Shown here: positions 43,036-50,729 of the stretch, piece after piece
Layout of the letters: each line of letters starts with the position of its first letter
Position numbering within the stretch: the stretch's first letter is position 1
Assembly (NCBI GenBank): GCA_016177925.1
Contig: JACOUH010000133.1
Location: forward strand, 1 to 64,000
Direction of reading: 5' to 3'
DNA length: 64,000 nt
Origin: Planctomycetota bacterium
GTDB taxonomy: Bacteria > Planctomycetota > Planctomycetia > Gemmatales > Gemmataceae
Position numbers and translations under genes: made by a program
Notes under the pieces: model-generated
The model's input: the letters and a program-made list of their open reading frames with translations, nothing else
Databases searched by the model: none
What the model was told of the DNA's origin: nothing

Positions 43036-43095
43036 CCCGCCGCTTGCGGCTTAGTATCTCCGGCCGCGCCGGGCTGCTAAGCCGCAAGCGGCGGG
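43036..43095. repeat. 60-bp palindrome, CCGCTTGCGGCTTAG family
   Basis: CCCGCCGCTTGCGGCTTAG at 43036 and its mirror CTAAGCCGCAAGCGGCGGG at 43077. A second copy is at 47882-47926. It fills the gap between the iron-sulfur gene and the SthA-like gene. Confidence 0.92.
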
Positions 43096-47881: not shown

Positions 47882-47926
47882 TTGCCGCTTGCGGCTTAGC
47901 ATCCCGTGCTAAGCCGCAAGCGGCAA
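47882..47926. repeat. 45-bp palindrome, CCGCTTGCGGCTTAG family
   Basis: TTGCCGCTTGCGGCTTAGCA and its mirror around TCCCG, two bases from the selD stop codon. It matches the copy at 43036-43095. Confidence 0.9.
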
Positions 47927-47927
47927 A

Positions 47928-48992
47928 TCACGGCCGGAGCAGGAGAGCCAGCCCGGGACGCGGTCGCTCGAGCACCTCGCCAATGATGCAGGTTCGGCTC
48001 GCGCTGCGCTTGCGGGCCGCCTCGACGAGGACGTCGGCTTTCTCGGCCTCGATACTCACCAGTAAGCCGCCCGACGTCTGGGCGTCGTAGAAGACCTCCA
48101 GCCGCACCGGATCGGGCTTGCCCTCGACTTGCAGGCCATCGGCGACATACTCGCGGTTGGTGGCACTGGCCCGCGTCAGGTGTCGGCGCTGGACGAGCGG
48201 CTCGACGTCGGGCAAGAGCGGCAAACGCGACAGGTCGATCGCCAGCGTCACGCCGCTGCCCTCGGCCATCTCGAAGGCGTGGCCGGCGAGGCCGAAACCC
48301 GTCACGTCGGTGACGGAGTGAGCGCCGCCGACCTCGACGACGGCGGCGCGGCCGATGGCGTTCAACTGCACCATGCTGGCACAGGCGGCCTCGAGCGTCT
48401 CTTCGGGACAGTCGTTGGCCTTGTGGGCAGTGGTGACGAAGCCGGTGCCAAGCGGCTTGGTCAGCACGAGCCGATCGCCCGGGCGGGCGGTGGCGTTGGT
48501 CCAGATCTTTTGCGGGTGGACAAGGCCGGTCACGGACAGACCGAACTTGATCTCGGCATCGCGCACCGTGTGCCCGCCCAGGACGACGGCGCCGGCCTCC
48601 GTGCAGCGCTCGGCCCCGCCGCGCAGGATCTCGCCGAGCCAGTCGAGGCTGAGCTTATCGTCGGGGTAGCCGACGAGGTTGAGGGCGGTCTTCGGGATAC
48701 CGCCCATCGCGTAGACGTCGGACAGCGCATTCGCCGCGGCAATCTGCCCGTAGACAAACGGGTCGTTGACCACCGGCGGAAAGAAGTCGAGCGTCTGGAC
48801 GAGGGCGATCTCGTCGGTCAGCCGATAGACGCCGGCGTCGTCGTGCGTCTCGGTGCCGACAAGCAGGTTGGGGTCGTTCAGGCGGGTGATGTTGCGCAAG
48901 ACTTGCGCAATGCCCTGCGGGGGCAATTTGCCCGCTCAGCCGGCGCAGGAGGCGTAATCGATCAAACGTTTCTTGCGGCCGAAGAAGAGCAT
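47928..48992 (-). CDS. selD: Selenide, water dikinase, itself a selenoprotein (Sec19)
   Basis: Reading through one in-frame TGA gives a 354-residue SelD. ATG at 48992 has AAAGGA seven bases upstream; the N-terminus reads MLFFGRKKRLIDYASCAG-U-AGKLPPQGIAQ, where the TGA at 48938-48936 sits exactly at the active-site Cys/Sec position of SelD and C16 is the partner Cys. ATP-binding features follow (THDDAGVYRL, TLDFFPPVVNDPFVYGQIAA, GGHTVRDAEIKFGLSVTG, FYDAQTSGGLL). It makes selenophosphate from selenide and ATP for Sec-tRNA. Straight ORF calling begins after the TGA at 48926. A hairpin-forming stretch just after the TGA (GCGGGCAAATTGCCCCCGC) could be the bacterial SECIS. Ends in a terminator at 47752. 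Confidence 0.93.
48917..48938 (-). promoter_or_regulatory. Candidate bacterial SECIS element of selD
   Basis: On the minus strand TGA is followed at once by GCGGGCAAATTGCCCCCGC, which can pair GCGGG with CCCGC, and inside it GGGCAA with TTGCCC. A stem-loop right after the UGA is what SelB needs in bacteria. Confidence 0.6.
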
Positions 48993-49083
48993 GGAACGGT
49001 CCTTTCTCCCACCCCGGTTCCATCCCAGCGCGGGAGAAAAGACCGGACGGCCGAGTCGACCTGGGTGGAGGCGGCGCGGCCGC

Positions 49084-49323
49084 TTACTTGTTCGCGCGAG
49101 CCTCGAGGGTGTCGACCACCCACTGCTCGTCGGGGAACGTACCGGTTTCGAGCTTCGAGTAGACCAGCTTGCCGTTGACGGTCACCTCGAAGCACCCGCC
49201 GCTGGATGGGATCAATTCGAGAGCCTTGATCTTCTGCTTGAAGTTAGTCAACAGTGTGGACGTCAAACTGACGGCCTTCGGTTCGTAGCCTCACATCGAG
49301 CAATACTTGATTGCCACCTTCAT
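49084..49323 (-). CDS. SelW-like (Rdx family) selenoprotein with CxxU motif
   Basis: A 79-residue protein when the TGA at 49293-49291 is read as selenocysteine: MKVAIKYCSM-U-GYEPKAVSLTSTLLTNF, then KALELIPSSGGCFEVTVNGK, YSKLETGTFPDEQWVVDTLE. The CxxU pair (C8, U11) at the end of the first strand and the later GGCFEV and G-x-F-P segments are those of Rdx/SelW proteins, thiol-redox proteins of thioredoxin-like fold. ATG at 49323 has AAAGGAGAGG upstream. It lies 91 bases upstream of selD on the same strand, so the two are likely one operon. Ordinary ORF calling finds only the part after the TGA. Confidence 0.9.
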
Positions 49324-49426
49324 GGCCTCTCCTTTGTCGGAAAAAGAGGACCGTGTCCCCCTCTCCCTCATGGTAGCGGCGCCGACTCGGCGCAACAAGA
49401 CCCGCCCCGTTCCACCCCGCCCGCCC

Positions 49427-49456
49427 TTGACTGTGTACTTGCGTTCACTCTATGAT
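49427..49456 (+). promoter_or_regulatory. Strong sigma70-type promoter of the Y-family polymerase gene
   Basis: -35 TTGACT at 49427-49432, 18-bp spacer, -10 TATGAT at 49451-49456. The ATG at 49452 lies inside the -10 element and cannot be the start codon of a transcript made here. Confidence 0.75.
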
Positions 49457-49502
49457 TGACTGGAGCCTATCTCCCAGCGGTAGGCCAGCGGTGGGGTTGG
49501 GC

Positions 49503-50729
49503 ATGGGCGTTCCTGCGGCGGTGGGCCACCTCGACGCCGACTGTTTCTACATCTCGGCGGAGCGGGTGCGCAACACTTTCCTCCTTGGCAAGCCGGTGGG
49601 CGTCCTGGGCAACCAGGGCGCCTTCGTCATTGCCAAGAGCTACGAGATGAAGGCGGCCGGCGTCAAGACCGGCGACCCCATCTGGGAGGCGATCGTCAAG
49701 TGCCCCCACGGCGTCTACCTGAAGCGCGACTTCCGCTGGTACGAAGTCCTTTCCCGCCTGATGCTCGACGTCGTCCGTGAATTTTCCCCCGAGGTCGAGT
49801 ACTACTCGATCGACGAGTTCTTCTTCCGCGTCCCGAGCGACAGCGAGCGCTCGCTGCAGGAGACTGCCGAAGTGATGCGCCACCGCATCCTGCAGCAGGT
49901 GCGCGTGCCGGTGACGGTCGGCATCGCGCGGAGCAAAACGCTGGCCAAGCTGATCTCCGACCAGGCCAAGCCGTTCGGCGCCCTGGCGCTGGTCGATCCC
50001 GAGGCCGAGCGGGCGCTGCTCGACCGGACGGCGGTGCAGGAAATCTGTGGCATCGGCGAACGGCGAGCGAAGCGCCTCGCCGAGTACAAGGTTTTCACGG
50101 CGCTGGACCTGGCGCTGGCTAATCGCAAACTCATCCGCTCTCTTTTGACGGCTGTCGGCGAGGCACTCTGGTTCGAGCTGAACGGCGACCCGGTGCTGCC
50201 GTTGTACAGTCAGCGTCCGCCGCACAAGATGCTGTCGCGCGGCGGGGCGATCGGCAAGCCGAGCGCCGACTTCAATTACATCTGGGGTTGGCTGGTGCGC
50301 AGCCTGGAGCGACTGATCGAGGAGCTGGAGTACCACCGCGTCTGCGCCGGGCGGCTGGAGACGTGGGTGATGCATTACGATGGGCAGGTCGGCGTCGGCA
50401 AGGTGGAACTGAACGGCCCGACCGATCGCTTCGACCTGTTGCTGGAAGCGGCTCGCCTCGGGTTGCGCAGGGCGTGGCTGCCGCGCCGGACGGTGGCGCG
50501 GCTGAACCTGGTGGCGACGCATTTGCAGTGGCCCGGCTCGGTGCAGCGGGGGCTGTTCGACCCGCCGGCAGAGCGGGCCGAGACCCTGGCGCGGCTGAAG
50601 CGCGAGGTCAACGACCGCTGCGGCCGATTCGCGCTGCGCAGCGGGGCGACCTTGTTCGTCAACGAGTTCTACAAGGACGAGGCGTACTCTTACGAGGTCT
50701 GCGACGTCCGCGGCAAGATATGCTTCTAA
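49503..50729 (+). CDS. Y-family (DinB/UmuC-type) translesion DNA polymerase
   Basis: 408 residues from ATG at 49503. The first catalytic motif is HLDADCFYISAERVRN, the second YYSIDEFFF with the paired acidic residues, and a helix-hairpin-helix part reads VQEICGIGERRAKRLAEYKV; the little-finger domain follows at about 250-370. The longer frame from 49452 is rejected because that ATG is part of the -10 promoter element. Copies DNA across lesions with low fidelity; PolIV/UmuC-like rather than the inactive ImuB type, since the catalytic acids are kept. The next gene on the same strand is its likely companion. Confidence 0.9.
   Translation: MGVPAAVGHLDADCFYISAERVRNTFLLGKPVGVLGNQGAFVIAKSYEMKAAGVKTGDPIWEAIVKCPHGVYLKRDFRWYEVLSRLMLDVVREFSPEVEYYSIDEFFFRVPSDSERSLQETAEVMRHRILQQVRVPVTVGIARSKTLAKLISDQAKPFGALALVDPEAERALLDRTAVQEICGIGERRAKRLAEYKVFTALDLALANRKLIRSLLTAVGEALWFELNGDPVLPLYSQRPPHKMLSRGGAIGKPSADFNYIWGWLVRSLERLIEELEYHRVCAGRLETWVMHYDGQVGVGKVELNGPTDRFDLLLEAARLGLRRAWLPRRTVARLNLVATHLQWPGSVQRGLFDPPAERAETLARLKREVNDRCGRFALRSGATLFVNEFYKDEAYSYEVCDVRGKICF

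Follow-up and report, generated by a model that had tools for sequence, protein, structure and literature searches.

The selD gene of the window, the whole stretch of 64,000 nucleotides analysed here, very probably encodes selenophosphate synthetase (SelD) in its selenoprotein form, with the UGA at codon 19 decoded as selenocysteine (Sec) by SelA, SelB and tRNA-Sec with the aid of a hairpin at 48910-48892; the upstream gene rdx is very probably decoded likewise. Sec-containing SelD is among the commonest bacterial selenoproteins. Bacteria with this arrangement in selD are already known, Sec machinery has been reported from Gemmata before, and the window is a well-supported further example. The least ordinary points are side findings, namely the recurrent rdx-selD pair, the UxxU type of Rdx in three relatives, two divergent tRNA-Sec genes in one genome and a Cys-type flavoprotein-SelD fusion in some Gemmataceae. 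The features of the region are listed in Table 1.

Table 1. Features of the rdx-selD region, with positions in the window
Feature	Position	Strand	Basis
selD, selenophosphate synthetase, Sec at residue 19, 354 residues	47928..48992	-	TIGR00476 374.9 bits, single in-frame TGA
Sec codon UGA of selD (codon 19), catalytic Cys position in solved SelD structures	48936..48938	-	frame, codon column, structure-sequence alignment
Ribosome-binding site AAAGGA of selD	49000..49005	-	sequence; 7 nt before ATG 48992
SECIS-like hairpin of selD, 8-bp stem TTGCGCAA/TTGCGCAA, loop GUC (48902-48900)	48892..48910	-	33 nt after UGA
20-bp palindrome directly after the selD stop, copy of a REP-like repeat	47882..47926	-	genome-wide half-site count
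rdx, SelT/SelW/SelH (Rdx) family, 79 residues, motif C-S-M-U	49084..49323	-	TIGR02174 75.9 bits, Pfam Rdx 79.8 bits
Sec codon UGA of rdx (codon 11)	49291..49293	-	frame, relatives
Ribosome-binding site AAAGGAG of rdx	49329..49335	-	sequence
SECIS-like hairpin of rdx, loop GUU 22 nt after UGA	49259..49275	-	folding, relatives

Reading frame of selD and its codon 19

Read on the minus strand from the ATG at 48992 to the TGA stop at 47930-47928, selD has codon 19 as its sole internal in-frame TGA, and the product begins MLFFGRKKRLIDYASCAG-U-AGKLPPQGIAQVLRN, U being codon 19. The read-through protein belongs to the SelD family by its score against the TIGR00476 selD profile, which lies above the curated cut-off of 125 bits, and since the match begins at residue 9, upstream of the TGA, the SelD homology spans that codon. 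U19 aligns with the Cys of GAGCGCK in structure 3u0o and of SSGCAAK in structure 2yye; the motif found here, CAG-U-AGK, carries Sec in the catalytic position, with the conserved Lys after it. A preliminary description of the window had proposed a UGA-containing selenoprotein gene with SelD-like sequence on both sides of the TGA and a good start with a ribosome-binding site upstream. These details were borne out, and the proposal as a whole is supported, at the level of sequence, by the frame, the codon column, the hairpin and the machinery genes.

The same description expected automatic annotation to start at 48926 and to lose the catalytic residue, and a plain table-11 ORF caller does so, calling a 332 aa product from the TTG at that position. 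Taken at face value, this call would make the TGA the real stop of a short leader and the enzyme a SelD that works without its Sec/Cys loop. Such a product is highly improbable, as a proper ATG with a ribosome site lies upstream, DYASCAG-U-AGK, which flanks the TGA on both sides, is conserved in loci down to about 50% identity, and in the Cys relatives the frame continues unbroken across this codon.

Related loci for the comparison came from 59 genomes of relatives and from scanning 84,980 species genomes. The best named SelD matches were from Planctomycetota MAGs, several of them labelled Gemmatales or Gemmataceae, at 65-77% identity. Among 69 non-redundant related loci, with the window left out, the codon-19 column holds TGA (57), TGC (9) and TGT (3) and no other codon (0), and TGA or TGC/TGT is kept in the exact column in loci down to about 41% identity. 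The earlier remark that many SelD enzymes carry Sec or Cys at exactly this place agrees with these counts (57 TGA and 12 Cys codons in 69 loci). Judged from the aligned genes, the conservation pattern is far beyond chance, and a column restricted to TGA or a Cys codon favours Sec/Cys over Trp, Gly or random stops.

The SECIS-like hairpin of selD

From each TGA, 57 nt were folded, the T of TGA being numbered 1. A single hairpin recurs in the Sec selD genes: it spans nt 29-47, and its loop is formed by the three bases 37-39. A stem of at least 5 bp was found in 27 of 34 planctomycete Sec selD genes versus 0 of 6 Cys genes. The mean stem at loop position 37 is 5.59 bp, versus 2.33 ± 0.29 bp after synonymous recoding (0/1000 as long), and the mean hairpin energy is -8.26 kcal/mol, versus -2.75 kcal/mol after protein-preserving synonymous recoding (0/200); the Cys selD genes (n=6) have a mean stem of 1.17 bp, with no excess over recoding. 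Double changes occur in 7 of the 8 stem pairs, with a covariation of 0.321 versus 0.141 when shuffled (0/500) and at most 0.103 when slid. Across 32 planctomycete selD genes the hairpin is kept through compensatory changes, and its inner six pairs were recovered independently by RNAalifold. The two marks of a SECIS, compensatory change and absence where Sec is replaced by Cys, are thus both seen in the selD hairpin.

Published constraints for bacterial SECIS elements are a loop of 3-9 nt, a stem of 4-16 bp, a G in the first two loop positions, a spacing of 16-37 nt and an energy of -7.5 kcal/mol or lower (PMC13188914). The hairpin of the window falls within them (loop 3 nt with G first, stem 8 bp, spacing 33 nt, -9.4 kcal/mol). 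Taken alone, its excess over synonymous recoding is modest (p about 0.03-0.04); the gene of the window is only mildly unusual, and the strength of the case therefore comes from the set of relatives. Bacterial SECIS elements in Sec-SelD genes have also been recovered by RNAz (PMC4561486).

A stem-loop had been proposed earlier to form right after the TGA. A small local stem can indeed form there, but the conserved hairpin lies further on; the stem next to the TGA was rejected as the SECIS because conservation is found only at nt 29-47. A search of the whole window with Rfam at gathering thresholds gave no matches, which is not counted against a SECIS since bacterial SECIS elements are too variable for such a test. 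The palindrome that follows the selD stop, examined as a possible second SECIS, was instead classed as a REP-like repeat: its half-site, GCCGCTTGCGGCTTAGC, has 48 exact copies in the genome versus 0 for a reversed control pattern, and it is probably unrelated to Sec. A further REP-like palindrome copy lies at 43039-43092.

The genome is fragmented, and a sequencing or assembly error with TGC or TGT misread as TGA, or a pseudogene, could be suspected on that ground. The probability of such an artefact is negligible, given that the same TGA recurs in dozens of assemblies made independently and spanning several phyla, that the SECIS hairpin is conserved in TGA genes only and that the remaining selD frame is intact.

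Selenocysteine machinery of the genome

The accepted bacterial route to Sec employs SerRS, SelA with selenophosphate, and SelB with a SECIS. The genes selA, selB and selC, whose absence the preliminary description had regarded as fatal to its proposal, are all present in the genome of the window (7.35 Mb, 484 contigs, 83% complete). selB and selA adjoin on contig C393, with profile scores of 578 bits for SelA and 391 bits for SelB, the latter having GTPase, beta-barrel and C-terminal winged helix (SelB-wing_3) domains. Two tRNA-Sec genes with anticodon TCA are located on contigs C322 and C15. The set that defines the Sec-decoding trait, selA, selB, selC and selD, thus occurs in one genome, and nearly all relatives with Sec-SelD also carry selA. 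Two other matches to the tRNA-Sec model in this genome (L003, L004) are tRNA-Ser, and extra tRNA-Sec-like matches in relatives (L162, L163) are tRNA-Cys. One relative, G017 (loci L026 and L103, assembly 95% complete), has Sec-SelD and Sec-Rdx but lacks a selA match and any strong match to tRNA-Sec, probably owing to missing contigs.

In the proposed mechanism, tRNA-Sec would first be charged with serine, and SelA would then turn it into Sec-tRNA with selenophosphate that SelD produces. SelB would bring the Sec-tRNA to the ribosome and, by its putative binding to the hairpin at 48910-48892, allow UGA codon 19 to be read as Sec. Sec19 is expected to sit in the mobile N-terminal loop of SelD and to act in the predicted synthesis of selenophosphate from selenide and ATP. 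SelD would then both supply the selenium donor for Sec and itself need Sec.

A genome-wide use of TGA as a sense codon, for example for Trp or Gly as in codes 4 and 25, would in a single gene produce the same open frame through TGA. It is extremely unlikely here: the homologous position holds Cys or TGA and never Trp or Gly, selD itself terminates with TGA, selA, selB and other long genes of the genome have no in-frame TGA, and selection maintains a specific hairpin downstream of the Sec TGA. A different genetic code, which had been named beforehand as a finding that would overturn the proposal, is accordingly disfavoured by the Sec/Cys column and the TGA stop. It is also quite unlikely that UGA is decoded mostly as Cys, or through near-cognate readthrough when selenium is limiting, to give an enzyme mixture. 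Cys SelDs do work in nature and a Cys codon is found in 12 of the 69 loci; the complete Sec machinery and the conserved SECIS speak for Sec as the product under selection. Some mixture of forms may still arise at low selenium.

The two tRNA-Sec genes (L159:1630-1725 on C322 and L160:4989-5084 on C15) differ at 17 of 96 bases. The copy on C322 abuts an ORF of the phage integrase family, and the copy on C15 is followed 76 nt downstream by an 18-nt repeat of its own 3' part; the two observations together suggest that tRNA-Sec genes are used as an integration site. The presence of more than one tRNA-Sec gene in a genome has precedent (PMC5330540).

Formate dehydrogenase-like candidates in the genome were checked as further selenoproteins and contain no in-frame TGA. 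This fits the proposal that Sec-SelD may maintain the Sec trait where Sec-FdhA is lacking (PMC1794560).

In nine Gemmataceae genomes (G003, G007, G011, G013, G018, G022, G027, G028 and G036; loci L164 and L166-L173) the only strong SelD match is a fusion of 630-870 aa between an NADH dehydrogenase-like portion and a Cys-SelD. All nine have selA, and all but G007 have a Sec-Rdx match. Such fusions are named 'fusion_not_SelD' by the NCBI model TIGR04369; the flavoprotein-SelD fusion type is known and predicted to be active (PMC4561486). By sequence, the Cys-type fusion looks like the only selenophosphate source in these Gemmataceae.

The rdx gene and comparison with known systems

Upstream of selD on the same strand lies rdx, a gene absent from the preliminary description. 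Its product carries the CxxU motif and exceeds the cut-offs of both family models (TIGR02174, 34.2 bits; Pfam Rdx, 22.6 bits), which places it among the Rdx/SelW-like redox proteins. Codon 11 is TGA in 21 of 21 non-redundant neighbours compared. The rdx hairpin of the window has a 5-bp core and two outer pairs beyond a mismatch, and at -7.5 kcal/mol it is borderline with respect to the bacterial SECIS constraints. The mean rdx stem is 5.5 bp, versus 1.82 ± 0.45 bp after synonymous recoding (0/1000); its covariation is weaker than that of selD because the rdx sequences are close to one another.

Of the 26 closest SelD loci (L023-L048, a set that includes that of the window), 17 have an rdx gene near selD, and in the whole set rdx is upstream and on the same strand in 25 of the 26 loci having it. 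The pair is kept in three of six Cys-SelD relatives (L037, L045, L046). From this gene order, rdx and selD probably form a co-transcribed operon, and the UGA of rdx would be decoded as that of selD. Divergent from the pair, an ORF at 49452-50729 on the plus strand resembles a Y-family polymerase of the DinB/UmuC type on reading of its translation.

In three Rdx/SelW-like proteins of relatives (L204, which is the L055 locus, L203 and L205; genomes G256, G273 and G013) the motif is UxxU rather than CxxU, encoded with two in-frame TGAs, and the SECIS-like hairpin is kept. Only CxxU is given for the family in PMC2398784 and PMC13188914.

Selenoproteins of the SelD and SelW-like families are well established (PMC1794560, PMC2398784, PMC4561486, PMC13188914), and SelW-like proteins are among the commonest selenoproteins of marine bacteria (PMC2398784). 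Compared with known Sec-containing SelD (TIGR00476), the gene of the window shares the family, the Sec/Cys position and the kind of SECIS inside the coding sequence; only sequence and host differ, and the hairpin is near the far end of the spacing range (33 nt in 16-37). The upstream gene shares the CxxU motif and family scores of SelW-like/Rdx proteins (PF10262), and in this clade it is coupled to selD in strand and order, with UxxU versions in the three relatives. In the available part of PMC4807772, Sec genes are reported in several planctomycetes, and full Sec-insertion gene sets without 2-selenouridine synthase in Gemmata obscuriglobus and Isosphaera pallida. The genome of the window likewise has no match to the gene for this enzyme (ybbB). 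The rdx-selD pair is not described for these two species in that part of the source.

The analysis corrects the start and the active-site residue of a selD gene that a plain ORF caller shortens, and the relatives supply natural pairs of Sec and Cys genes where loss of the Sec codon goes with loss of the SECIS hairpin. A dedicated partnership, in which Sec-Rdx reduces the selenium substrate or hands selenium to SelD, is a tentative and rather unlikely proposal drawn from adjacency, and three of six Cys-SelD relatives keep the pair as well; if true, it would address the question of the selenium form used by SelD inside the cell. A pair of selenoprotein genes is added for Gemmatales, and the recurrent rdx-selD pair offers a lead on the delivery of selenium to SelD.
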